A DNA stretch of 45,079 nucleotides, taken from positions 1 through 45,079 of IMG/VR virus record IMGVR_UViG_3300008110_000492. The stretch is one strand, 5' to 3'. The notes beneath the pieces are model-generated. The model was given only the letters and a program-made list of their open reading frames with translations. It had not been told where the DNA came from and searched no databases. The position numbers and the translations under genes were made by a program. Each line of letters starts with the position of its first letter. The first letter of the stretch is position 1. The DNA comes from a virus. Shown here one piece after another: positions 4,918-42,949 of this stretch.

Positions 4918-7176
4918 ATGAGCGATAGTAAAAACGTTCTAGATTCTATGCTCAAGGCGGTCATTTCCCGCGATGGTAGCGATCAAACCGATACCATGCT
5001 GGTAAATGCCCACCTCTCCCAAATGAAGATGTTTGGGGTGCGTCAGGGTGTTGAGTTCTACCCAGCCCAAGATAACTTGGGCACACAGCGATCTGATTTT
5101 ATTCAGCAGGTCATCAAGTTTAATAAACTGGATGCTCGTCTGGACTCGATCTGGGATCGCTTTTTGGCCTATGGTAAAGGTCTTTTTTATATTCGACCGA
5201 CTAAGAAAACATATCGACTCTACTGGTTCGATAAAGATGCGTATCGAACTTACTACTCTACAGAGGGAGATTTAGAAGAAGTCATCATTATTTATCCGTA
5301 CAAAGTAAAGTCTACGAAAGGCTTTCAAGGTGTTGGTTTAAGTACGGATAAACGTTATATGCGTCTTCGTATTACAGCGACTGAAATTGAAGAGTTCCAC
5401 AGCGAACAAGAAATTTCTTTCGACATGCCGTCACTGGAAGCTGGCGCTTTCGAAAAGAAGACCGTTGTCAACAGCATGGAATTTATTCCATGTGTGGAAG
5501 TATTTAACAATCCAGATGCTTTTGGCACCGAAGGTAGCGGTGAATTTGATTGGATGGCTAACCAGATCATCGCTCACGATGAAATGGTTAAAAACATTCG
5601 AGCAAACCTTTCATTTTTCGGCAATCCCACATTACTCTCTTCCAGGCCAAAGCAAGATATTGTCGAGAGTAACGACACCGATGTAGCACAGCGCCCCAGT
5701 ATTTCCAGTCAGTCTGGATTCCAGTCTGAGTTTTTCTTATCCAGTTCAACCTTTAAGCAGGATAACGTCACACGGCAGCCTCCAGGCTATATCGGAAAGC
5801 CTGGCTCCGGCATGCGCGTACCTCGAGTCATCGCGAACCTGGAGCCAACAGATCGTGTCGGTTTTATCACCCCAAACGCAGTTAGCACAGATCAGGCGCG
5901 GTATGCAGAACAGCTTCGTAGTGAAATTCGCTTAGCACTTGGTGGCATTGATGATTTAAGCATCACCAACGTAACTGCAACCGAGATCAAATCGGCTTAT
6001 GGACGTGTCAGTGCTACAGCCAAGAAGAAATGCTTGATGCTCTATACATACGGCATTTGCCGTTGCTTCGAATTAATGATCTTCCAGGAAGAGCAAATCT
6101 TCCGTAAATCATTGGCATACTCACTGGGTATTAAGTATCCAATTCCTCCCGAAGATACAGAGGACGAGGCTGCTGTAACTAAGTACGAAAAACAGTTGGT
6201 AACTTATGAGAAGAAACTTCAAAAAGCTCTAGATGCTGTTATCGAGAACCGCGAGATTCCCAGTGGCGTTTTAGGTCTTGCCCCAGACGGTGATCGTGCT
6301 GTTATGTGGCGCTGGATGGGACCTGTATACGAAGATACGGCACAAGATAAACTTAACCAATCTATCTTCACGAGGAACCTACAGGAATTAGGGGTTGATA
6401 GCATTGAAGCACTGAAGTATTTATTCCCTTCTAAAACGGATGATGAAATCGCGGGGATGCTCTCCGGTTTCCCATTCCGAATGGTAGGGGAAGTACAGAG
6501 GGCCTACTCAGCATTTATTGATCTAATCAATCAAGAAATGCGAACACCACATCCACAGCAACCGAATTTACCGATGGCTGCGGATCCGAGATTAGATCTC
6601 ACTCCCTTCCTTTACCGAACACTCGAAAGCCTACAAAAAGAGGTAACTTATGCAGGCCGATACCGCAATGCCGACCCAATCGGCACCCCAAGCATCCCCG
6701 ATCCAGCCGAGCAGCTACGGGGCTCCGGTGGCGCAGACGGCGGCACAAGCGCCAACGGTTTCAACGACGTCCCAATGGGTGGCGCCCTACCAGCAAGCGG
6801 TGGCCCCAGCCCCGCAAATGCAGGCCCAGATGGGGGTCAATCCGTACCTGTCAACCCCTACAGCGTCATACCCCCAAGCGTACCAGGCAGCCCCACAAGC
6901 GGAGAACCCTTACAAGGAGGCGTTCAACAAGGTAGTGGGGCTCCTGAGTTCGCCCGTCCAATTCCCGTTCCAGGGTCAACAGTACAGTCAGAACCAAGCC
7001 TACGACCAGGCCAATTACGCTTCCCAACAGGGTCTCCAGTACAACAATTTGGCGACGGAGACCTATACGCCTTCGAACAACAGCAGCCAGGCGTATTACA
7101 ACGACTATTCCCAAACTTCTCCGGTAATAACGGAGGAAATGCTGCTGGACAACGGGGTAAGCGAGCAAAGTCTTGA
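4918..7176 (+). CDS. Portal protein with long overprinted C-terminal tail
   Basis: 752 residues from ATG 4918; a TTG six bases upstream is possible. The dodecameric portal forms the DNA gate at one capsid vertex. The assignment rests on position after terL, length, a helix-rich clip/stem region with AVSTDQARYAEQLRSEIRLAL around residues 325-345, and a conserved-looking ATEIKSAYGRVSATAKKK stretch that resembles the stem helix of other portals. From about residue 577 on, the protein becomes Pro/Gly/Ser-rich and disordered, and its DNA is also read in another frame by the next gene for 527 nt. The true stop is at 7176, but how much of the tail is functional is unclear. Confidence 0.8.
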   Translation: MSDSKNVLDSMLKAVISRDGSDQTDTMLVNAHLSQMKMFGVRQGVEFYPAQDNLGTQRSDFIQQVIKFNKLDARLDSIWDRFLAYGKGLFYIRPTKKTYRLYWFDKDAYRTYYSTEGDLEEVIIIYPYKVKSTKGFQGVGLSTDKRYMRLRITATEIEEFHSEQEISFDMPSLEAGAFEKKTVVNSMEFIPCVEVFNNPDAFGTEGSGEFDWMANQIIAHDEMVKNIRANLSFFGNPTLLSSRPKQDIVESNDTDVAQRPSISSQSGFQSEFFLSSSTFKQDNVTRQPPGYIGKPGSGMRVPRVIANLEPTDRVGFITPNAVSTDQARYAEQLRSEIRLALGGIDDLSITNVTATEIKSAYGRVSATAKKKCLMLYTYGICRCFELMIFQEEQIFRKSLAYSLGIKYPIPPEDTEDEAAVTKYEKQLVTYEKKLQKALDAVIENREIPSGVLGLAPDGDRAVMWRWMGPVYEDTAQDKLNQSIFTRNLQELGVDSIEALKYLFPSKTDDEIAGMLSGFPFRMVGEVQRAYSAFIDLINQEMRTPHPQQPNLPMAADPRLDLTPFLYRTLESLQKEVTYAGRYRNADPIGTPSIPDPAEQLRGSGGADGGTSANGFNDVPMGGALPASGGPSPANAGPDGGQSVPVNPYSVIPPSVPGSPTSGEPLQGGVQQGSGAPEFARPIPVPGSTVQSEPSLRPGQLRFPTGSPVQQFGDGDLYAFEQQQPGVLQRLFPNFSGNNGGNAAGQRGKRAKS

Positions 7177-19109: not shown

Positions 19110-21455
19110 ATGGCTACACAAGTACAGTTTCGCCGTGGTACTACAGCTGACATCTCCACATTTATAGGTGCTGATGGAGAAGTTGTTGTTGACACTACAA
19201 AAAAAACTTGCGTTGTTCATGACGGTGTTAAGATAGCTGGTTATCCACTGCTGCGTGAAGATGGGTCTAACAGCGCTCTGAATGTGGGTAGTCTATCCAG
19301 CTGCGCGTTAAAATTTATTAATGATCCAAATACCGGCATCATTAGCCCCGGAGCAGATCAGATTGCGTTAGTTACAGGAGGAGCTTCTCGGCTTAGTGTT
19401 GATTCTTCGGGTTCTGTAACAATCCCTGGCAACTTGCTGGTCGCTGGCGCTTTTACTGGTACCATTACTTTGGATAATGGTAGTGCTGCAGTTCCAGCGC
19501 TCCGTTTTACTAATGATCCAGACACAGGAATATACTTAGCCGGTACAAACGAAGTAGCCATCAGCACTGGCGGCACGCAACGGCTGACTACAACCACAAC
19601 AGAAGTCACATCAACGTTACCTGTACTTCATCCGCTTGGAGCCGCAGCTACTCCAAGTCTTACTTTTACCGGCGATACAAACACCGGCGTCTACTCCCCC
19701 GGTGCAGACCAGTTAGCTATCTCTACGGCAGCGACCGAGCGCGCGCGGTTCGACGAGTCAGGCAGGTTGCTGGTCGGAACATCTAGCGCCATTGCCGCCG
19801 CGCCTTTACTGCAGATTGAACAAATCGCAGGTGCTGAAATTGTACTGGGGCGCCAAGATACTTCTGTCGTTGCTGATGACCTCATTGGCAGTATCAGTTT
19901 TTGGGGCCGTGACACGTCTGGGGTTGCTTACACCGAGCAAGGGTCGGTTAAGTGTTTTGCAGATGGCACTCACGATCCCGGTACGAATCCAACAAGGCTA
20001 GTGTTTTCTACCACCGCTGACGGAGCCGCAAGTCCGACGGAGCGGATGCGCATCGATAGCGCAGGTCAAATCGAAGCAGGTTCTCTTGGTACCGCCGCAG
20101 CACCTGTTTGGTCTTTCCTTGCTGATCCCAACACCGGCATTTACGCCCCTGGCGCAGACCAAGTAGCCATCAGCACTGGCGGCACACAACGGCTGACTAC
20201 AACCACAACAGAAGTCACATCAACGTTACCTGTACTTCATCCGCTTGGAGCCGCAGCTACTCCAAGTCTTACTTTTACAGGCGATACAAACACCGGCCTG
20301 TACTCCCCCGGCGCAGACCAAGTAGCCATCTCGACTAATGGCACTGGGCGGTTGTTTGTTGATGCGAGTGGGAATGTTGGAGTAGGATCAGTATCTACAT
20401 CCTCATTCCAGTCTGCATCGTCTACAGTATTGTCTTTAAGAGATACTGCCAGTAGCAATATTGCTTCATTGAAAGTACTCGGTGGCGCAGGCGCAGGCGC
20501 TATTGCAGAGTACGGAGCAACAAACGGCATTGGTTTTTGTGGCACTAGCGGCGCTCACGACTTTGTTTTTTATACAAACTCCAGCGAGCGGATGCGCCTG
20601 GACTCCAGTGGCCGCTTGGGGCTGGGGACTTCTGCGCCTGGAGCAGTATTAGAGTCCAAGACGGCAAACGTACAATCGGGCGATGCGGCGTACGCCAAAA
20701 AGGCCGTCATAACTAACATTCCTTATTCAACCAGCAACGTCACTTCTTCGGCGTTAGCAATTTACGACGGAACTATTCATGCCGCAGACATTGGCTATTC
20801 CTACGATGGCACTGGTTATTATTTAACGTTCGGCACTAACGACAACACGATTGGCGCTCCGATTGAAAGTCTGCGTATTGACCGCTCAGGGCGAGTAGGG
20901 GTGGGCACTGCGAGCCCTGGGACTGCACTTGATGTAAATGGTGTTATTACATCGAGGAGTGATTCATTTGCTGCTGTTCGTTTTAGAAGTTCTACCGGTA
21001 CTGACAAAGCTTTCTTGAGCTACGAAGATGGAAGCACATCCGTATTCCTAAACAACTATGGATCTGGTCCCATTGTTTTCAAAACTGCCGATGCTGAACG
21101 CGTCCGCATCGACAGCTCAGGGCGTGTAGGCATAGGGACCAGTAGCCCACAGGCTCTTCTTGATATTACAGATACAGGTAATCAACCCAAGCTGCGGCTA
21201 AGTACTAACACAGCTTCAAATTTTCTTGAAATTAGCCGATCCTCCAGTACAGGTCATTACACTTTTGCGTCCGAAGAAAATGGATCCAGCATTATTTTTG
21301 CCACTGATCCCGATGGGACAGGTGCACAAAACAGGGTCACGATAGATCGCTACGGGAAAGTAGGGATTGGCAACAATTCTTGGCTCAACGGCAAACACAA
21401 ACATCAAGATGGGCGGGAACATGACTGTTTCTGCCGGTGGAGTTCTTGGTTTTAA
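19110..21455 (+). CDS. Tail fibre, N-terminal part (frame breaks near 21.37 kb)
   Basis: 781 residues, of which roughly the first 755 look genuine. The N-terminus (VQFRRGTTADISTFIGADGE) matches fibre or appendage proteins that begin with a Gln-Phe-Arg-Arg-Gly-Thr strand. The rest is built from repeats of FTNDPDTGIYLAGTNEVAIS and MRIDSSGRVGIGT types, the usual shaft units of phage fibres with a self-cleaving chaperone. The last residues after KVGIG turn into basic, His/Trp-rich sequence unlike the shaft, which marks a frame change. The natural continuation is in the next reading frame (21367-22320). Confidence 0.8.
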   Translation: MATQVQFRRGTTADISTFIGADGEVVVDTTKKTCVVHDGVKIAGYPLLREDGSNSALNVGSLSSCALKFINDPNTGIISPGADQIALVTGGASRLSVDSSGSVTIPGNLLVAGAFTGTITLDNGSAAVPALRFTNDPDTGIYLAGTNEVAISTGGTQRLTTTTTEVTSTLPVLHPLGAAATPSLTFTGDTNTGVYSPGADQLAISTAATERARFDESGRLLVGTSSAIAAAPLLQIEQIAGAEIVLGRQDTSVVADDLIGSISFWGRDTSGVAYTEQGSVKCFADGTHDPGTNPTRLVFSTTADGAASPTERMRIDSAGQIEAGSLGTAAAPVWSFLADPNTGIYAPGADQVAISTGGTQRLTTTTTEVTSTLPVLHPLGAAATPSLTFTGDTNTGLYSPGADQVAISTNGTGRLFVDASGNVGVGSVSTSSFQSASSTVLSLRDTASSNIASLKVLGGAGAGAIAEYGATNGIGFCGTSGAHDFVFYTNSSERMRLDSSGRLGLGTSAPGAVLESKTANVQSGDAAYAKKAVITNIPYSTSNVTSSALAIYDGTIHAADIGYSYDGTGYYLTFGTNDNTIGAPIESLRIDRSGRVGVGTASPGTALDVNGVITSRSDSFAAVRFRSSTGTDKAFLSYEDGSTSVFLNNYGSGPIVFKTADAERVRIDSSGRVGIGTSSPQALLDITDTGNQPKLRLSTNTASNFLEISRSSSTGHYTFASEENGSSIIFATDPDGTGAQNRVTIDRYGKVGIGNNSWLNGKHKHQDGREHDCFCRWSSWF
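19552..19711 (+). repeat. 160-nt direct repeat, copy 1 (in fibre gene)
   Basis: Nearly identical to 20161-20320, with about six mismatches. The two copies are 609 nt apart, a multiple of three, so recombination between them would delete or duplicate 203 residues in frame. Confidence 0.85.
20161..20320 (+). repeat. 160-nt direct repeat, copy 2 (in fibre gene)
   Basis: Second copy of the repeat at 19552-19711. Both encode the EVAIS/QVAIS-TGGTQRLTTTTTEVTS unit and the following FTGDTNTG unit of the fibre shaft. Confidence 0.85.
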
Positions 21456-22320
21456 TACAAACGGCTCCGAACGTGCCCGCATTGACAGCTCGGGACGCCT
21501 GTTAGTTGGCACGTCTACGAGCCCCACGGTTGGCGATGCTCAGTACGGCTTGCTGAGAACCCAGGGCAACACAAGTACTAGCTCAGGATTTGGTCTTCTT
21601 TCTATTGCAAGAGGACTTGCCCCAGCATCAATTACTTCTGGCGCGGAAATTGGATACATCCATTTTACTGCCAATGATGGATCTCCATTTGCAAGGATCG
21701 AGTGCAGTGCTGATGCAAACGCTGGAGTAAATGACTACCCAGGCCGCCTAGTGTTCTCCACTACCGCCGACGGAGCGAGCAGCCCGACGGAGCGGATGAG
21801 GATTGAATCAACTGGGCGTACTGGTACTTATGCTTCAGCAGCGGACGGTTTTCAAGTCAGCTCTAATGCTGCCGCTGGCACTACCTACGCCAACTTTGTT
21901 GGCAGATTTGATGGTGGGGCACCGTTTGGTGGAACTATTTCGGTTACAATCTGGAATAACGGCAACATCCAGAATACCAATAATTCTTACACAGCTATTT
22001 CCGACATTAAACTGAAGGAGAACATTGTCAATGCCAACTCTCAGTGGGATGACATCAAAGCTCTTCAGGTCCGCAACTACAATCTCAAAGAAGGCCAAAC
22101 CCACCGGCAAATCGGCCTAATCGCCCAAGAGGTTGAGCCAATTAGCCCTGGATTGGTTTACGAATCCCCTGACCGCGACCCCGAAGGCAACGACCTTGGC
22201 ACCGTCACCAAGAGCGTCAACTACTCCGTGCTCTACATGAAGGCTGTCAAGGCGCTGCAGGAAGCAATGGATCGCATCGAAGTTCTAGAGCAGCGTCTCA
22301 CGGATGCTGGTATCGCCTAG
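21367..22320 (+). CDS. Tail fibre C-terminal part with S74 intramolecular chaperone
   Basis: 317 residues, opening at a TTG inside the end of the upstream fibre frame. It continues the same shaft repeats (SERARIDSSGRLLVGTS). From about residue 205 it has an intramolecular chaperone/peptidase S74 domain: SDIKLKENIVNANSQWDDIK, then RQIGLIAQEVEPISPGLV, and a final coiled coil (MKAVKALQEAMDRIEVLEQR). These domains trimerise the fibre and cut themselves off at the Ser-Asp start. There is no ribosome binding site before the TTG. I read it as the second half of one fibre of about 1070 residues. Confidence 0.8.
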   Translation: MATILGSTANTNIKMGGNMTVSAGGVLGFNTNGSERARIDSSGRLLVGTSTSPTVGDAQYGLLRTQGNTSTSSGFGLLSIARGLAPASITSGAEIGYIHFTANDGSPFARIECSADANAGVNDYPGRLVFSTTADGASSPTERMRIESTGRTGTYASAADGFQVSSNAAAGTTYANFVGRFDGGAPFGGTISVTIWNNGNIQNTNNSYTAISDIKLKENIVNANSQWDDIKALQVRNYNLKEGQTHRQIGLIAQEVEPISPGLVYESPDRDPEGNDLGTVTKSVNYSVLYMKAVKALQEAMDRIEVLEQRLTDAGIA

Positions 22321-24216: not shown

Positions 24217-25470
24217 ATGAAAACAACTGATCCTGGTATAAACCTTATTAAAACATTCGAGGGTTTTAGTGTAAATAGCTATTTATGTCCAGCAAATGTT
24301 TGGACTATAGGTTATGGACACACCGGACCTGAAGTAAAAGAGGGAATGCGTATTACAGAAGCCGAAAGTCAAGCAGTATTAAAAAAAGATCTAGCACGCT
24401 TCGAAAAAATTGTAGAGGACAACGTCAAAGTTGAACTAAACCAGAACCAATTTGATGCTTTAGTTAGTTTTGTTTTTAACGTCGGTGGTGACGCTTTCAA
24501 AAAATCGACATTATTAAAGAGGCTTAATAGCAAAGAGGATCTAAATACTGTTGCAAAAGAAGAGCTGCCACGCTGGAATAAGGGAGACGGCCGTGTATTA
24601 GAAGGTTTAAAGCGTCGTCGCAACGCTGAAGTTGATCTATTTACGGCGCCAGCACCTGAATTGAAAACGGGCGCTGTTGACCTTACCTCAAAACAATTGA
24701 CTTTTGTCAAGAAGTTGATAAAACCTTCGGCCGAACTTTTGGCTGACGAAAAAGCTAAGATCAATGCTAATCGACGTATCCCACAATGCCGGATTTTAGA
24801 GCGTAAAGATAAACATACGCTTGTAGAGCTTGGTTATGGAATGGGAACATGGTGGTTATTTGATGATCACTGGAGTGGCTTGAAAACAGATACAAGCGTA
24901 AAAGTATATGCTACTGATGGTGATTTACGGTATTTGAGGAACTTTCCTTATTTCTACCAACGTGATAATGGCCCTGAAGGCTGGCGCCAGTGCCAAACCA
25001 GTGCCATCGCCATGTGTTTAAAATACATCGATGTGCCTGGAATTAAAGATGATCTGGACTACTTGAAGATTGTCAGCAAACACGGCGATACGATCTACCA
25101 GCAGACTCATATCGATTCTCTCGAAGAGTTGGATGTTTACGCTAAATTTACAAAATCAGCAAATGCAGATGACATCAAACAGCAAATCGACAAAGGACTC
25201 CCTGTTGTTGCCGGCGTTCTTCATCATGGAGCTGTCTCTCGTCCTTCTGGCGGCGGCCACTACATCGTTATTACTGGATATAGCAAAGATTATTGGCTAG
25301 TTCAGGACCCATACGGAGAGATTGATCTTGTTAATGGCGGTTGGACACGTCAAGGACCGACCGCTGGTAAAAATCAAAAGTACAGTTTTAAAAACCTAAA
25401 TCCGCGACTTTTTGTCAGTGGTGGCGCAGATGGATGGTGCTGGCTAAACTTTAGGATCAAAGCGAATTGA
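24217..25470 (+). CDS. Two-domain endolysin: GH24 lysozyme plus C39-like peptidase
   Basis: 417 residues. Residues 5-145 form a T4-type GH24 muramidase with the triad Glu15, Cys24, Thr30 in the usual E-8-C/D-5-T spacing (IKTFEGF and WTIGYGHT). Residues about 185-230 look like a small SH3-like wall-binding segment. Residues 245-400 match a C39-like papain-fold peptidase: Cys259 in WRQCQTSAIAM, His348 in GGHYIVITGY, Asp364 in VQDPYGEIDLV. The protein has no signal peptide, so a holin is needed. A muramidase fused to a C39-type cysteine peptidase would cut both glycan and peptide bonds. Confidence 0.88.
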   Translation: MKTTDPGINLIKTFEGFSVNSYLCPANVWTIGYGHTGPEVKEGMRITEAESQAVLKKDLARFEKIVEDNVKVELNQNQFDALVSFVFNVGGDAFKKSTLLKRLNSKEDLNTVAKEELPRWNKGDGRVLEGLKRRRNAEVDLFTAPAPELKTGAVDLTSKQLTFVKKLIKPSAELLADEKAKINANRRIPQCRILERKDKHTLVELGYGMGTWWLFDDHWSGLKTDTSVKVYATDGDLRYLRNFPYFYQRDNGPEGWRQCQTSAIAMCLKYIDVPGIKDDLDYLKIVSKHGDTIYQQTHIDSLEELDVYAKFTKSANADDIKQQIDKGLPVVAGVLHHGAVSRPSGGGHYIVITGYSKDYWLVQDPYGEIDLVNGGWTRQGPTAGKNQKYSFKNLNPRLFVSGGADGWCWLNFRIKAN

Positions 25471-26327: not shown

Positions 26328-26399
26328 AGCGGATGATCGGGGTCGAACCGACGACAGTCTGCTTGGAAGGCAGGAGCTCTACCACTGAGCTACATCCGC
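26328..26399 (-). tRNA. tRNA-Gly(UCC)
   Basis: Full cloverleaf on the minus strand: acceptor GCGGATG / CATCCGC, D arm with AGCTCAGTGGTAGAGCT, anticodon loop CTTCCAA (anticodon TCC), T arm with GGTTCGACCCC, discriminator U. No CCA is encoded. It reads GGA, a codon favoured by A/T-richer phage genes over GC-richer hosts. Confidence 0.95.
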
Positions 26400-26401
26400 A
26401 A

Positions 26402-26475
26402 TACCCGAGGGCGGATTCGAACCGCCGACTGCCTCATTTTAAGTGAGGTACCTCGTTCCGCTGGGTCACTCGGGC
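26402..26475 (-). tRNA. tRNA with anticodon UAA (Leu) and short variable loop
   Basis: Acceptor GCCCGAG / CTCGGGT (first pair G-U), three-pair D stem, anticodon arm CCTCA-CTTAAAA-TGAGG with anticodon TAA, T arm GGCGG-TTCGAAT-CCGCC, discriminator A. It should read UUA. The variable loop is only CAGTC, whereas normal bacterial leucine tRNAs have a long variable arm. Confidence 0.88.
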
Positions 26476-26483
26476 ATTTCACC

Positions 26484-26586: not shown

Positions 26587-26997
26587 ATGTTCCACTGCGA
26601 AAACGACCTCCTTGTTAACCTTGTTGTACTCACTCCAAAACTTGCTCGACGTAAGTTTCGTGAACACATTTTTGAAGCCTGGGATTGGAAATGCGCTTAC
26701 TGTGATAAACAGTTAACAGCACATACAGCAACGATTGATCACATCGTGCCTAAGCATAAGGGCGGTCAAAATGTAAGGTCGAATTTAGCGTGTGCGTGCG
26801 GTCCTTGTAATCGAAATAAAGCCAGTCAATCTTTAAGTGATTGGTTTATCCCGCAGCAAACATTTTTTTGCGAGGAGAGACTTGATAAACTAAGAAGGTG
26901 GTTAGAACAGAAACCACAATCAATAAAGTTACCATCTGCGGGCCACGCTGTACCGTATTTAGCAAATGATTTCTACATCGGATGGGTCGCGACCTAG
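26587..26997 (+). CDS. HNH endonuclease
   Basis: 136 residues. TPKLARRKFREHIFEAW leads into CAYCDKQLTAHTATIDHIVP, KHKGGQNVRSNLACACGPCN and RNKASQSL: a classical HNH nuclease with Cys-x2-Cys, Asp-His, Gly-Gly, Asn-Leu, Cys-x2-Cys-Asn. It diverges from the tRNA cluster. I recall this form as a frequent free-standing HNH gene of T4-like cyanophages. Confidence 0.88.
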   Translation: MFHCENDLLVNLVVLTPKLARRKFREHIFEAWDWKCAYCDKQLTAHTATIDHIVPKHKGGQNVRSNLACACGPCNRNKASQSLSDWFIPQQTFFCEERLDKLRRWLEQKPQSIKLPSAGHAVPYLANDFYIGWVAT

Positions 26998-27151
26998 TGC
27001 AGAAGAGTTTCTTCAGGGCAAACTGAGGCAGTATGACCTGACAGAGGACATGATTGCCCGTTTACAGCGGAATAGAATGCCTACTCTTTACCAAGAGGTT
27101 GCTGCTGGTCAGGTGCCCCAGGATGTCCGTTCTCAGAATATTGTGATCTAA
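26966..27151 (+). CDS. Small hypothetical protein
   Basis: 61 residues, starting inside the HNH gene end. PSAEEFLQGKLRQYDLTEDM and ARLQRNRMPTLYQEV. Helical. No family recognised. Stop and next start share a base (TAATG). Confidence 0.55.
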   Translation: MISTSDGSRPSAEEFLQGKLRQYDLTEDMIARLQRNRMPTLYQEVAAGQVPQDVRSQNIVI

Positions 27152-27423
27152 TGGCTGACAGAGCAAAAGCCAAGCGATTAGCAAAAGAACACATGAAGTG
27201 TAATAAGCCGCAGAGAGCACCTGCTGGTGATACACATAAATTTGTTGTAAAATCTTGTCACGAAGGCGAAGAAAAAATTGTAAGGTATGGTCATCGCGAT
27301 TACCAAGACTATACACAGCACAAAGATCCTGAGCGGAGAAAAAATTTCCGCTCGCGAATGAACTGTGACGAAGCCATGGATAAAAACACACCCCGCTATT
27401 GGGCGTGTAGCCGACTTTGGTGA
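27151..27423 (+). CDS. Small basic protein of a marine-phage family
   Basis: 90 residues. KCNKPQRAPAGDTHKFVVKS, CHEGEEKIVRYGHRDYQDY, PERRKNFRSRMNCDEAMDKN and YWACSRLW. The pattern V-V-K-S/A-C-x-x-G-x-E-K-I-V-R-x-G followed by E-R-R-K-x-F-R-x-R-x and a final Y-W-A ... W is familiar from small proteins of marine phages and viruses. Function unknown. The basic charge and conserved Cys suggest nucleic-acid contact. Confidence 0.7.
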   Translation: MADRAKAKRLAKEHMKCNKPQRAPAGDTHKFVVKSCHEGEEKIVRYGHRDYQDYTQHKDPERRKNFRSRMNCDEAMDKNTPRYWACSRLW

Positions 27424-27763: not shown

Positions 27764-27979
27764 ATGGATGCAGTAGATCTTCCAATGGACGTGGAGTTCT
27801 CCATTCACGCCGCCGCCTTTGCCATTCAAGGTTTTGACCGCGACGAACTGGAAGAAGCATTCATTGAGGTGCTTCACCAAAAAGCCCAAGATCGCCAAAT
27901 GTTCCTGGGAATCCTAAAAGACCACGGTATCGACGCCGATATCAATTTCAACTACTCAACGCTCGGACAGATCTCGTAA
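27764..27979 (+). CDS. nblA: NblA-like phycobilisome degradation adaptor
   Basis: 71 residues. LPMDVEFSIHAAAFAIQGFD, then RDELEEAFIEVLHQKAQDRQ and MFLGILKDHGID follow the NblA layout: a short acidic lead with x-x-E-F-S, a first helix, a D/S-R-D/E-E-L/Q turn, and a second helix ending in a K-D/H-x box. NblA links phycobilisome antennae to the Clp protease so that they are dismantled. Phage copies would free amino acids during infection. Length and pattern agree; there are no absolutely diagnostic residues. Some marine cyanophages are known to carry active nblA. Confidence 0.6.
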   Translation: MDAVDLPMDVEFSIHAAAFAIQGFDRDELEEAFIEVLHQKAQDRQMFLGILKDHGIDADINFNYSTLGQIS

Positions 27980-27984
27980 CCGCC

Positions 27985-28371
27985 ATGGCACTCCGCACAA
28001 TTAAGGGCACCCTTGACACCTTTCAGGTTGACGCTGGCTCTGAAATTACTTATCTTGGTAACACCACAGCTAGCAATACTGGCGGCACCAATATTCGTGG
28101 TTTCCGCGTAAATCCAACCAGTACTGGTGACATTGTTGTAAAAATCGTTAGTAGCAGCGGGATTAGCACAGTCCAGATTTTTCAAGAAGACGACTACTCA
28201 GCGGGTTCCGCTCCTACCGGCTACAAAAAGTTCTCGAATATCGCTAAGGACGGCAAAAATAAGGGTGCTGTTGCCGTGACGGTTACCAATGCGGCTAAGA
28301 ACTATGTTGTGCTGCTAGCCATTGACGGGTACTCTGAGGTCAGCTACACCGGTTCGGTTGACGTCCCGTAA
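27985..28371 (+). CDS. Small beta-rich protein, possible virion protein
   Basis: 128 residues, alternating strands (RGFRVNPTSTGDIVVKIVSS, then GISTVQIFQEDDYSAG and AKNYVVLLAIDGYSEVSY). It resembles a pre-peptidase C-terminal type beta-sandwich. It sits between the nblA-like gene and the lysozyme-like gene. Function unknown. Confidence 0.55.
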   Translation: MALRTIKGTLDTFQVDAGSEITYLGNTTASNTGGTNIRGFRVNPTSTGDIVVKIVSSSGISTVQIFQEDDYSAGSAPTGYKKFSNIAKDGKNKGAVAVTVTNAAKNYVVLLAIDGYSEVSYTGSVDVP

Positions 28372-29098
28372 AAAACAAGTTGAGGATTGGAGTGAATACC
28401 CACTCCTCACTCAAAAAGGCATTGATCTCATCAAGTGGTATTTTCCGCCTAGGGTGTGCCTCACTCCTGGGCGATACGGTTCGTATAAAGACTACGGTGA
28501 AAGCACTTGGCGCATCGGCTACGGAAGTAAAACGCTAGGTAAACACACCGTAAGTAGAACAGAAATAGCTACACAGGAGGAAATAGATCGACAGCTAATT
28601 GAAGATTTGAAAGTGTTTTCGAACGCATTGCGTGATTATATTCATGTGCCGTTAAATGACAGCAAAAAAGCTGCTTTGCTCAGTTTTGCGCACGATTTAG
28701 GATTGGCCTCATTTAAAAAGTGTCGACTATTGGAACTAATTAACCGATTAGCTTCAAAAACAGAAATCATTAGCGAATGGAGTCCTTATATCAATCAGAT
28801 CTGGTTTTCAGGCGGAAATAGAACAGTCGATAGACGTAGAACTGAACTGAATATGTTCTATGCAGCAGATAAAGAGATCCCAACACAACTAAAACATAGC
28901 TGCAATGTTGAATTCTGTCTTCTTAACCTGCCGGAAACTTACAACGGTGCTTCAAACCAAATTAAAGCCATTGAATACCTGGAATCTAAGATTCTTGAGT
29001 GGGATCCAGATGGCCGCAGCCTGAGGCATTTTTATCGTCTCTGGAGTCAGAAGCCAGCTGGTCTAGGTTCGCCTCCGCGTCCTCTGAATGTCGACTAA
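28358..29098 (+). CDS. Lysozyme-fold (GH24-like) protein lacking catalytic residues
   Basis: 246 residues from TTG 28358, which overlaps the previous stop; another TTG lies at 28322. Residues 18-170 follow the GH24 fold: LLTQKGIDLIKWYFPPR, STWRIGYGSKTLGKHTVSRT, ATQEEIDRQLIEDLKVFSNA, and SKKAALLSFAHDLGLASFKK. At the catalytic places the Glu of x-x-F-E-G is Phe (IKWYF) and the Thr of W-T-I-G-Y-G is Arg (TWRIGYG). It should therefore not cut glycan in the normal way. It may bind peptidoglycan, be structural, or regulate the true endolysin. The C-terminal 113 nt are also read on the opposite strand. Confidence 0.7.
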   Translation: MTSRKKQVEDWSEYPLLTQKGIDLIKWYFPPRVCLTPGRYGSYKDYGESTWRIGYGSKTLGKHTVSRTEIATQEEIDRQLIEDLKVFSNALRDYIHVPLNDSKKAALLSFAHDLGLASFKKCRLLELINRLASKTEIISEWSPYINQIWFSGGNRTVDRRRTELNMFYAADKEIPTQLKHSCNVEFCLLNLPETYNGASNQIKAIEYLESKILEWDPDGRSLRHFYRLWSQKPAGLGSPPRPLNVD

Positions 29099-29474: not shown

Positions 29475-29702
29475 ATGAACCCACAGCTTAGCCAAGACTA
29501 CAAGGTCGATGCCAGATATAAAGGTGGCAGAGGCGCCATAGACAACACAGCGGCCGACCGGTTTTTACGTGGCTATTTGGATTTGATGCGCGTTGCCGGG
29601 TCTCCAAACCAAGATGCAGAATTGGCCTCTGAGGACCGCTTTATTGTGAGCGGGCCAGGAGACAGTAAGTATAGCTTTAGGAATGATTTCAAGGCTAAAT
29701 AA
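29475..29702 (+). CDS. Small hypothetical protein
   Basis: 75 residues, Gly/Asp-rich, with DARYKGGRGAIDNTAADRFL and SEDRFIVSGPGDSKYSF. It diverges from the DUF1599-like gene with 25 nt between starts, and its stop overlaps the end of the methyltransferase-like gene. Function unknown. Confidence 0.55.
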   Translation: MNPQLSQDYKVDARYKGGRGAIDNTAADRFLRGYLDLMRVAGSPNQDAELASEDRFIVSGPGDSKYSFRNDFKAK

Positions 29703-30321
29703 CTACTTTTCCTACGTGTGAAAAGATATCGTTGAAGCGATTAATCGCTTCATTTCCAAGTGAAGGAGGCGGCAAGTAAACAAAATAGCCCCAATAGATA
29801 GGGACTTGTAGCCGATAAAAGGTGCCTCCTTGGATTAGGTTAGCGCGGTCTTTGGGAATGCACATTGGTAAATCCCACACATCTTGACATGTGCGCAGCA
29901 TTTCAGGGTACGTGGTGTAGAACAGAGCTTCAGGAATGTTCCTTAATTTCCACTCTTTATACAGGCGTTCAAACCAAGCCGTAGCAGGTGCTTTGGACTT
30001 AAGCCCAGCACGCATGCTCCAGCGCCAGCTTCCTCTGGCTTTGCTGTACGTACAACGTCCGTACGTCGGTGGGAATAGGTAGGTCGTGCCCTTCCACGAC
30101 TCCTGTACATTTAAACCATCGTCTTCAAGAGTGTAGATTTTCTTTGCGCGAAGGTATTCCGCATTCGCTTTGTGGGTCGAACACGGATCTAACTCGATAT
30201 CACCTAATAATGCATCGATGTACGGTAAATACTCAACGGGCGTAAGCCAGTCATCTCGTATATGGTAAATCCGTGAAAGTTTACTTTGCTTGATCCACCA
30301 GTTGCGTTGACTCCTATTCAT
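29695..30321 (-). CDS. Phage DNA N6-adenine methyltransferase-like protein
   Basis: 208 residues. RDDWLTPVEYLPYIDALLGD, IELDPCSTHKANAEYLRAKK, DDGLNVQESWKGTTYLFPPT match the phage Dam-type (PF05869-like) family: the W-x-T-P entry, LDPC, the D-G-L turn, and the catalytic motif. In place of N-P-P-Y/D-P-P-Y the sequence is F-P-P-T-Y-G, so the usual Asn/Asp is lost and the Tyr displaced. I recall the FPPTYGRC form in cyanophage homologues. Methylation activity is thus uncertain. The end overlaps the next plus-strand stop. Confidence 0.7.
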   Translation of the reverse strand: MNRSQRNWWIKQSKLSRIYHIRDDWLTPVEYLPYIDALLGDIELDPCSTHKANAEYLRAKKIYTLEDDGLNVQESWKGTTYLFPPTYGRCTYSKARGSWRWSMRAGLKSKAPATAWFERLYKEWKLRNIPEALFYTTYPEMLRTCQDVWDLPMCIPKDRANLIQGGTFYRLQVPIYWGYFVYLPPPSLGNEAINRFNDIFSHVGKVVI

Positions 30322-30725
30322 ATACGCATAAAAGCGTCGTTGTGATTGTCAAATTTGTAGTGAACTAAAGACATCTGATCTTTATCCTGAATGATGAATA
30401 AAGCAGCAGAATTTGGATCAATAGACTCTGCTAATGCGATTGCTTTTCGCATTACCTCAGCAGGACCTTCTTGTTCTTCAGCGTTAAAATCTTTAAGCGC
30501 ATTCATTAATGCTTGACTCGGTAAATAGTACATCGAATCGTCAACATTTTTCGCATCAGGAATGTATACAACCGCCCCAGGGCCTTCCAGGTTGTAAAAC
30601 TTCTGGAAAAAGTCACACATATCTACGCAGATGCGCTCCATGACAAGCTTCATCATTACCTGCTCCTCTTCGCTTGGAGCAGCGAAGATCATGTTGGAGA
30701 GCATCTTTTTGCGACGTTCAGACAT
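30318..30725 (-). CDS. Conserved-looking hypothetical protein
   Basis: 135 residues, coupled by ATGA to the methyltransferase-like gene. N-terminal helix with MKLVMERICVDMCDFFQKFY, middle GAVVYIPDAKNVDD, and an end with AALFIIQDKDQMSLVHYKFD. The mixed fold has alternating strands. No family recognised. Confidence 0.6.
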   Translation of the reverse strand: MSERRKKMLSNMIFAAPSEEEQVMMKLVMERICVDMCDFFQKFYNLEGPGAVVYIPDAKNVDDSMYYLPSQALMNALKDFNAEEQEGPAEVMRKAIALAESIDPNSAALFIIQDKDQMSLVHYKFDNHNDAFMRI

Positions 30726-30751
30726 TGGATAAAAGCGAATAGTTTAGTTTA

Positions 30752-31348
30752 TCAATTAGCCTGTACTTGGTCTAGTACGGGCGTTGGCTGGGTTTTGATG
30801 AGATGCCCCAAGCCTGATCGCTTCAGAGTTTCTAGCAGCTTTGGTAAAGGCCTGTAAAGCACCACTGCTTTTTGCATGTTTCCAATTTTTTTAATGAGCT
30901 TACCGTTGTCGTCGCGCAGTTTCGTCAGTTCCCCTTGGCGAATCAAATACTCAGCAACACAGCGATAGCGTCTTTTTTCAGCTAATCCGATATCTGGATA
31001 CCGATCACAGATCGTACTAGTCTTCATGTCACTGAACGCTAGTCGAATCTGATCGGCCAGGGACAACCCCATAATAATGTCGGTTGTGCTAGTTTCATAA
31101 CTGCACACGAGTTCGAGATAACGTCTGAGATCGAGAGTCTCGAAACTGCCTATGGGAGGGATAAAGACCTCTACCTGCTGAGCAAGCGACTCTACCAGCT
31201 TATCTTTGTAGTTGCTTACGGTTACCTCGTTAATGTCTAAGTTAACAAAGCGATAGCTCTGGTAGGTGTTTAACTTGTCCTGTGTCGGTTCAAATTCAGT
31301 GATGTCGAGGACGTCTAGCCAGTCCTCAAATGTCTTGCTGCTCATCAC
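30752..31348 (-). CDS. Hypothetical protein, possible DNA-binding C-terminus
   Basis: 198 residues. N-terminal acidic part, a helical middle (DLRRYLELVCSYETSTTDII), and a C-terminal region resembling a winged-helix (RYRCVAEYLIRQGELTKLRD followed by KLIKKIGNMQKAVVLYRPLP). It overlaps the upstream gene by 23 nt. Regulator role is speculative. Confidence 0.55.
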   Translation of the reverse strand: MMSSKTFEDWLDVLDITEFEPTQDKLNTYQSYRFVNLDINEVTVSNYKDKLVESLAQQVEVFIPPIGSFETLDLRRYLELVCSYETSTTDIIMGLSLADQIRLAFSDMKTSTICDRYPDIGLAEKRRYRCVAEYLIRQGELTKLRDDNGKLIKKIGNMQKAVVLYRPLPKLLETLKRSGLGHLIKTQPTPVLDQVQAN

Positions 31349-39496: not shown

Positions 39497-40300
39497 TCAG
39501 TCTGAGTCTTTTGAGTCAGCTTCCAGTCCCGGCAGGATCTCGCTGTAATACTTCTCGACTGCGTCCAACCACTTCTGCTTGTATTTCTCGATGGTGTTGC
39601 CCTGCACAGCAAAAACTTGCGAGCGCTCCCGAGTTGCAACAAAAATCATCAGGATTTCAGGCACGATGCCGACTGTATGCTCGAGCCCCATGGCGTAAGC
39701 ACCCATCTGCATCATGCATTTTTGATATTTCATGAAACCAGCACGCCGCATTCCATACTCATTTTTCGGACAATCAGGACCGGGCCATTTGGCGTAATAC
39801 GGACCATTCGATGTCTTTAAATCCCCGAGAACAATCTTATTCTTGTACTCGGCCACAATATCAGGTGCTCCAGCCCAGCCCCAGTTAGCGTCTTCTTTTA
39901 CGCCTGGGTGCCAAACCCGACTAATACCGTCACTGCCCATAGTCCACGGGAAAGCATCACCCGCCGGGTTCTCTGCCCAGATCACACGACCGAGTTTATC
40001 TAGGTTCTCAGGCAAACCACTCCAAAACGATGCGATCTCCTCATCTTCAATTACCGGGTTCTTATTGATCCCAAGTAGATACTCCTCCATCAAGGAGTGA
40101 ACCTTAGTGCCTCTTGCTGCTGCAGCCTCACGTCCACCTGGATTTTTCTTTGCCCAACGTTCGAGAGCTGCTTTATTTCCACCAGTTGCTGACAGAATTG
40201 TCGTCACAGAAGGGAGCGCACCATACGGCGTCTTGTAATGACGAGAACCGTTAATGGTAAGTCGCGTATCTCCATCTGAGCGATAATTCACAAACTGCAT
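39497..40300 (-). CDS. PD-(D/E)XK nuclease, RecB/Cas4-like
   Basis: 267 residues from ATG 40300; the frame stays open to 40519, but that segment reads poorly and would take up the whole speD leader. PSVTTILSATGGNKAALERW, REAAAARGTKVHSLMEEYLL (the typical R-G-T-x-x-H helix), AGAPDIVAEYKNKIVLGDLK with Asp and the E/D-x-K core, and MMQMGAYAMGLE (Q-x-x-x-Y motif) are standard RecB-family elements. There is no clear Cys cluster for Fe-S. It likely acts in DNA recombination, repair or host-DNA breakdown. Confidence 0.85.
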   Translation of the reverse strand: MQFVNYRSDGDTRLTINGSRHYKTPYGALPSVTTILSATGGNKAALERWAKKNPGGREAAAARGTKVHSLMEEYLLGINKNPVIEDEEIASFWSGLPENLDKLGRVIWAENPAGDAFPWTMGSDGISRVWHPGVKEDANWGWAGAPDIVAEYKNKIVLGDLKTSNGPYYAKWPGPDCPKNEYGMRRAGFMKYQKCMMQMGAYAMGLEHTVGIVPEILMIFVATRERSQVFAVQGNTIEKYKQKWLDAVEKYYSEILPGLEADSKDSD

Positions 40301-41725: not shown

Positions 41726-41899
41726 CTACTCGTCTAGCTTATCCGCCTCATCCTGAGACTTCAACCATTCTTGACGCTCAGCTTCTGTCTTCTGCAGTTC
41801 TTGTAGACGCTTTTGATACAGATTACCGATCCAACTCAACTCCTGCTCCTGCTGTTCTGCAGCTGCATGAATCAAGTTGTCCAGCTTCTCCTTATCCAT
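41726..41899 (-). CDS. Small coiled-coil protein, 57 residues
   Basis: MDKEKLDNLIHAAAEQQEQE, then LSWIGNLYQKRLQELQKTEA and a charged end. One long helix. It overlaps the next upstream gene by eight bases, matching the tight packing of this block. Just below the common 60-residue cutoff. Function unknown. Confidence 0.55.
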   Translation of the reverse strand: MDKEKLDNLIHAAAEQQEQELSWIGNLYQKRLQELQKTEAERQEWLKSQDEADKLDE

Positions 41900-42098
41900 C
41901 GACGACTTCCTCCGCGTCTACATCGATTTCTTGTTGGTCAGCCTTAATGAGGAGAAAAGAGCCATCGTCCTGCTCAATAAATTCAATATTATCCCCTTCA
42001 CCCCAATCGAGGGCCTCCCACAACTCATCCGGGAGGGTGAGAACACCCTCCTCATCAACATATAAAGTCCAGGACTGACCTTCATTTAGCTGATTCAT
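41892..42098 (-). CDS. AbrB/SpoVT-like swapped-hairpin protein
   Basis: 68 residues from ATG 42098; the frame is open further upstream in the antisense of other genes. SWTLYVDEEGVLTLPDELWE, then ALDWGEGDNIEFIEQDDGSF and LLIKA. It is a DNA-binding AbrB-type hairpin (x-L-P-D-E-L-W then G-D-x-I-E-F). Small proteins of this form are common in cyanophages. A distant relative is encoded at 4715-4897. Confidence 0.7.
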   Translation of the reverse strand: MNQLNEGQSWTLYVDEEGVLTLPDELWEALDWGEGDNIEFIEQDDGSFLLIKADQQEIDVDAEEVVDG

Positions 42099-42423
42099 CT
42101 CGTCCACCAAAGTAGTTTTGTACTTCCTCCCGGAGCAGTGTTCGCATCTCAGCGAATAGATCGTCTTTGTCATAGCTGTACGCTGATGTGGGAAATGTAA
42201 TGTCCTGGATGCCTTTTTTGTTTTTGTAAGTGCGGTCGGCATAGTAAGTGAGTTCACTGACGATGTCGTGCAGCTCTTTGACGCTGGGGCAGCGGAACTC
42301 TGCAATCATTGGCTCACTTTGAAACCCCTCTAGTGTGATCCGCATCAACTCAGCCATGATCAACACTTCCTTAGAGAAGACTTCACTGTACTCTTTGAAG
42401 TCTTTATACGCAGCTTCGTGCAT
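42082..42423 (-). CDS. Hypothetical protein
   Basis: 113 residues, helical. AYKDFKEYSEVFSKEVLIMA, then CPSVKELHDIVSELTYYADR and DLFAEMRTLLREEVQNYFGG. Overlaps the AbrB-like gene by 17 nt. No family recognised. Confidence 0.55.
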   Translation of the reverse strand: MHEAAYKDFKEYSEVFSKEVLIMAELMRITLEGFQSEPMIAEFRCPSVKELHDIVSELTYYADRTYKNKKGIQDITFPTSAYSYDKDDLFAEMRTLLREEVQNYFGGRDESAK

Positions 42424-42603: not shown

Positions 42604-42705
42604 TCACCACTTGTCAATCCCTTCAGGCTTAACCATCTCTTTGTATTCGGTGCTACCAATCCAAAACTTGTTCTCGTTAGACTGAAAATTATGCTCACCA
42701 CTCAT
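42604..42705 (-). CDS. Tiny protein, 33 residues
   Basis: MSGEHNFQSNENKFWIGSTE, then YKEMVKPEGIDKW. The start codon overlaps the start codon of the plus-strand gene at 42704 (shared CATG), so the two genes have no room for promoters between them. Accepted because it fills an otherwise empty stretch; it is short, so tentative. Confidence 0.4.
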   Translation of the reverse strand: MSGEHNFQSNENKFWIGSTEYKEMVKPEGIDKW

Positions 42706-42949
42706 GTCCAAGTTTGAGCTGATTGAGTTTCAGTTTGATCCTGATGATTTTTCTCTGTCTTTAGAGGACGAGTTTCAAATCACACGACTTGCTGCAGAGA
42801 TCGATAAGACTGAATGCATCAACAGTGTTAAGGACGGAGCTAAGAAGCTTTTACAATTGGCTGTACACCGTCAAGCCGTTATCCGAAACTTGATCCGTCG
42901 CCTAGCCGATCTTGAATCTGGGGCCATTCGGAAGATGTACACCGAATAA
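42704..42949 (+). CDS. Small acidic/helical protein
   Basis: 81 residues. FELIEFQFDPDDFSLSLEDE, then FQITRLAAEIDKTECINSVK and LAVHRQAVIRNLIRRLADLE. Pattern recalls a conserved small cyanophage protein. Alone on the plus strand among minus-strand genes. Its stop overlaps the T-run of the minus-strand terminator. Confidence 0.6.
   Translation: MSKFELIEFQFDPDDFSLSLEDEFQITRLAAEIDKTECINSVKDGAKKLLQLAVHRQAVIRNLIRRLADLESGAIRKMYTE

Follow-up and report, generated by a model that had tools for sequence, protein, structure and literature searches.

A divergent NblA-like gene beside the lysozyme gene in Synechococcus phages of the S-EIV1 lineage

Results

The stretch of DNA analyzed here, referred to as the window, comprises 45,079 nucleotides and corresponds to positions 1 to 45,079 of the viral record IMGVR_UViG_3300008110_000492, which is 59,817 bases in total. 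An ORF of 71 codons lies on the + strand at 27764-27979, with an ATG at 27764 and a stop codon ending at 27979, precisely where the earlier note, made from the letters alone, had placed a 71-residue protein. We annotate the product as a putative divergent NblA homolog on the basis of a PDB profile search, an NCBIfam model, an hhalign comparison, and predicted helices. A gene with no assigned function (27985-28371, + strand) starts 5 bases past the stop of the nblA-like gene, an offset that is identical in 84 of 86 loci, and encodes a 128-aa protein with no significant Pfam or PHROG match; the two genes are probably cotranscribed. It is followed by a phage lysozyme gene (28322-29098, + strand; PF00959, 1.1e-14), which is present downstream of the nblA-like gene in 81 of the 86 loci. 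The TTG start listed for this lysozyme overlaps the 128-aa gene, and the true start may lie further inside. Upstream are an HNH gene (26587-26997), with homologs in relatives of Synechococcus phage S-EIV1, and a small gene (27151-27423, + strand), found in 63 of the 86 loci; by blastp, its homolog borders the block of lysozyme and NblA-like genes in S-EIV1 and relatives. The window contains one other phage lysozyme gene (24217-25470, + strand), which carries a fused C39-like peptidase domain.

The ORF codes for a protein and has evolved under strong purifying selection. Its relatives are encoded on 244 IMG/VR contigs, an alignment of 28 family members contains 32 invariant columns, and family comparisons with the window copy as the reference gave pN of 0.04-0.13 versus pS of 0.42-0.88; because of these values and the fixed offset to the next gene, a chance ORF can be excluded. 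Among 46 distinct sequences, the members are 71-74 aa long, which falls within the size range of NblA (about 55-80). The sole relative in cellular genomes, a gene at 83% identity on a contig of a Bacteroidetes MAG (L043; QQUU01000116.1), probably reflects a stray cyanophage contig in that bin.

The record encodes a terminase with 64% identity to that of S-EIV1, the nearest isolate by this gene, and an S-EIV1-type 754-aa structural protein with 51.5% identity, both at coverage of at least 97%; for the structural protein, S-EIV1 was the sole match in the phage collection. With homologs of both of the proteins that define the lineage, the window virus is, as judged from sequence, a member of the S-EIV1 lineage of Synechococcus phages. 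The short nucleotide matches of the window, which lie chiefly in tail fibers, were to Synechococcus phages in 17 of 17 records, and together with the terminase these bear out the Synechococcus host that had been proposed earlier. The tail-fiber segments at 20319-21806 are 84-96% identical to those of the podoviruses S-CBP1, S-CBP3, S-CBP4, S-CBP42, and S-RIP1, a likeness with otherwise unrelated phages that would be a sign of recombination in the receptor-binding parts. Adjacent tRNA-Gly (TCC) and tRNA-Leu (TAA) genes are found at 26328-26476 (- strand), the former with 96% identity to a tRNA of Synechococcus phage S-CBWM1. Searches of the window's record for the psbA, hli-type, and CpeT families gave no match, although the record may be incomplete.

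Since neither Pfam nor PHROGs returned anything for the single 27764 ORF, family profiles were employed. Against the PDB, the lone ORF sequence had two matches at E ≤ 10, both to NblA (E = 0.0046 and 0.64), and a 28-sequence profile recovered the same two entries at 5.1e-5 and 0.012. A 57-sequence profile, which includes a second form of the lysis-block gene described below as form E, matched two NblA entries only at E ≤ 1 (4.9e-7 and 6.4e-6) among 177,635 PDB sequences. The NCBIfam NblA equivalog model (NF045916) gives an E value of 2.5e-4 for the ORF on its own and also matches 16 of the 20 sequences aligned, counting known NblAs, but the 21.1 bits scored by the ORF are below the equivalog cut-off of 100 bits. 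The Pfam NblA model (PF04485) matches 6 of 28 family members, at best with an E value of 0.003 and under the curated cut-off (25 bits), and the ORF alone has no Pfam match. Because the scores fall under the curated cut-offs, the protein is classed as an NblA-like divergent homolog rather than an NblA equivalog. In an hhalign comparison with a small reference alignment of seven NblAs, the family aligned over 58 columns with a probability of 92 and a score of 37.2, versus a maximum of 19.7 across 100 column shuffles, which do not keep helix periodicity. The family HMM, applied to 50 kb of the phage Ma-LMM01, ranked the annotated nblA first (E = 0.0069, with the next ORF at 4.3), and an NblA HMM run over the 513 ORFs of the window ranked a gene at 42704-42949 first (2.2e-5) and the 27764 ORF second (0.057). 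By tblastn, none of 50,697 phage records gave the 27764 ORF a match above noise, and Anabaena NblA as the query against phages gave noise only.

An AlphaFold model of the protein (mean pLDDT, 79.9) has helices at residues 8-21 and 26-53 followed by a low-confidence tail, which is the predicted NblA layout of a short helix, a loop, and a long helix. Foldseek searches of the PDB and BFVD with this model found neither NblA nor any other credible match, an outcome that we count as neutral because a monomer of two helices offers such a search little to match. The lack of an NblA match in Foldseek would also suit a small protein with a virion, assembly, or lysis role that resembles NblA by chance through its short amphipathic helices, as would the fixed place beside the 128-aa gene and the lysozyme and a degree of conservation resembling that of a core gene. 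However, this explanation is very improbable given that NblA is the sole PDB family at E ≤ 1, that the NCBIfam, Pfam, and Ma-LMM01 tests all agree on NblA, and that the hhalign score is far above the shuffles, albeit with helix periodicity lost in the latter. The earlier note had claimed both a resemblance to NblA and its two-helix layout and had proposed a profile search as a check; that search does find NblA, the resemblance is significant at the profile level in the PDB, NCBIfam, and hhalign comparisons, and the layout is reproduced in the model. We conclude that the 27764 protein is very probably a distant homolog of NblA.

The residues at which NblA is reported to contact its partners are conserved in part. 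In Anabaena NblA, L51 and K53 are presumably the phycobiliprotein-binding residues, and the C-terminal I50-L51-K52 of the 27764 protein fits this L-x-K region. From the N-terminal NblA motif L-x-L-E-x-E-F-x-L-R, L6, E11, and F12 are retained, the Arg (R16 of Anabaena NblA) is replaced by His, and the C-terminal Trp (W56) is absent. E11, F12, L51, and K52 are invariant among the 46 distinct sequences. A review describes ClpC as bound by a motif near the N-terminus of NblA and phycobiliproteins by one near the C-terminus (PMC4103541). The partial alteration of these motifs is consistent with the main rival explanation, in which the protein descends from NblA and has kept the fold, and perhaps the contact with ClpC, but no longer targets phycobilisomes and instead redirects ClpC toward a different protein of the host, or blocks host NblA or ClpC by competition. 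Strong conservation within the family despite only about 20% identity to NblA points in the same direction, as does a C-terminal extension that is common to the 27764 family and form E and absent from NblA. Nevertheless, the residues reported to bind phycobiliproteins (for the C-terminal motif, PMC4103541) are retained, and those phage NblAs that were assayed do cause phycobilin loss (PMC9602691), so that we regard such a repurposed adaptor as unlikely.

The second NblA-like gene (42704-42949, + strand) encodes an 81-aa protein and lies in the replication region on the strand opposite to that of its neighbors. Across the whole record, the Pfam NblA model has its sole match at 42755-42898, within this ORF (PF04485, E = 0.002). 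The best PDB matches of the 42704 family profile are to NblA (2q8v, 0.0013; 2qdo, 0.028), 7 of 10 family members match Pfam NblA (best, 4.7e-4), and the predicted helices span residues 20-35 (short) and 39-80 (long). Foldseek with the 42704 model did not find NblA, and tblastn against phages with this gene as the query gave noise only. As far as these comparisons go, the evidence for NblA identity is weaker for this gene than for the 27764 gene. A direct profile comparison of the two families scored 15.5, versus a shuffle maximum of 19.8, and because it is not significant, the families are connected via NblA only. Nearby, a 137-aa ORF (41892-42305, - strand) has a weak match to an antitoxin-annotated PHROG (1.7e-4) and matches phrog_661 at 1.6e-8.

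A lysis-block NblA-like gene, of either the 27764 form or form E, was present in 24 of 24 S-EIV1-lineage records checked, a count that holds partly by construction because most records were fetched through this gene; independent of it are S-EIV1, which was found by way of the terminase, and the records G044 and G049, found by way of the second gene. The 42704-type gene occurs in 20 of the 24 records, with one copy carrying an internal stop, and in 16 of the 20 fetched via the lysis-block gene (G005 was reached via both). One 88-kb record (G012; IMGVR_UViG_3300011113_000581) contains form E (6011-6298), the replication-region form (39673-39843), and the 27764 form (87598-87813) together. In S-EIV1 itself (KJ410740), hypothetical proteins at 73902-74222 and 27768-27986 are homologous to the two NblA-like families; the former is the form-E gene, which matches PF04485 at 5.9e-4, below the curated cut-off, and adjoins a lysozyme homolog. 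Form E is similar to the 27764 gene in its lysozyme neighborhood, its reciprocal profile matches, and its C-terminal extension, but differs in having about 20% identity, an acidic C-terminal tail, and a position after the lysozyme rather than before it. Relatives of S-EIV1 have the HNH gene first, then a long gene, the 27151 homolog, lysozyme, and the form-E gene, followed by homologs of 29695-31348. The nblA-like gene of the window therefore shares this neighborhood, but on the opposite side of the lysozyme. For the genus-level group of S-EIV1, a 2017 survey lists hli and ptoX but not nblA (PMC5332604). No homolog was found by any profile in the cyanopodovirus S-CBP42, where the best form-E match was attributable to chance.

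Discussion

The reading that we favor, with a probability of about 0.72, is that the 27764 protein acts as a ClpC adaptor sending phycobilisomes to degradation. By analogy with NblA, the protein would form a helix-loop-helix dimer in which the C-terminal end, with the invariant L51-K52, binds phycobiliproteins, while the N-terminal motif (L6, E11-F12) binds the host ClpC chaperone. The Clp protease would then dismantle the phycobilisomes during infection, with bleaching as the expected outcome, and this breakdown would release amino acids and lower light absorption. Synechococcus is phycobilisome bearing, so an NblA would find its target in the host. The main contextual caution is the late-looking position of the gene, as its place beside the lysozyme suggests late expression, a stage at which the supply of amino acids would be of lower value.

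The 42704 protein may act with the 27764 protein or at another stage of infection. One conceivable extension is that a two-part NblA system, made up of the lysis-block 27764 gene and the replication-region 42704 gene, forms part of the lineage core, with the two proteins either pairing as a heterodimer or differing in their timing or in the parts of the antenna on which they act; we put this forward tentatively and consider it doubtful. For Synechocystis, an NblA1/NblA2 heterodimer has been proposed, going by a title cited in PMC7966870. If the two-part system is real, antenna dismantling would be obligatory rather than accessory in the S-EIV1 lineage, and if the paired adaptor is real, antenna loss would be expected in infections by these phages. 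Phage nblA is usually seen as an occasional auxiliary gene, but in this widespread lineage, it looks like a core gene, one that has been missed so far because its scores fall under annotation cut-offs. The occurrence of two divergent NblA-like proteins per phage makes paired-adaptor dismantling of picocyanobacterial antennae directly testable, and the isolate S-EIV1 holds homologs of both families, so culture work is possible.

In comparison with cyanobacterial NblA (PF04485, NF045916; PDB 1ojh, 3cs5), the 27764 protein is alike in length and predicted helix-loop-helix, its family aligns over 58 columns with no internal gaps until the C-terminal end, and the L, E-F, and L-K positions are conserved in both. 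It differs in having about 20% identity, an extra tail of about 12 residues, His in place of the N-terminal-motif Arg, no C-terminal Trp, and scores under the curated cut-offs. NblA is known in phages from Ma-LMM01, PaV-LD, podoviruses, S-TIM5, S-SCSM1, and marine metagenomes (PMC9602691). The NblA of Ma-LMM01 (BAF36096.1) is likewise phage borne, but it is near-canonical (110 bits with an NblA HMM that includes it), unlike the 27764 protein, and belongs to an unrelated phage in which nblA adjoins nrdA, whereas that of the window adjoins lysozyme. Ma-LMM01 carries nblA, while the usual marine cyanophage auxiliary genes are all absent (PMC5780444); the record of the window resembles it in having an NblA-like gene without psbA, hli-type, or CpeT matches, a parallel to be read with caution because the record may be incomplete. 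The NblAs of marine podoviruses, S-TIM5, S-SCSM1, and metagenomes (Nadel 2019), compared here by description, are marine-phage-borne like the 27764 gene; the marine phage genes have been termed distant NblA homologs, and some are active in S. elongatus PCC 7942 (PMC9602691). Phage NblA as such is therefore already known, while the divergent subfamily, its near-universality in the S-EIV1 lineage, and the presence of two NblA-like genes per genome appear to be new.
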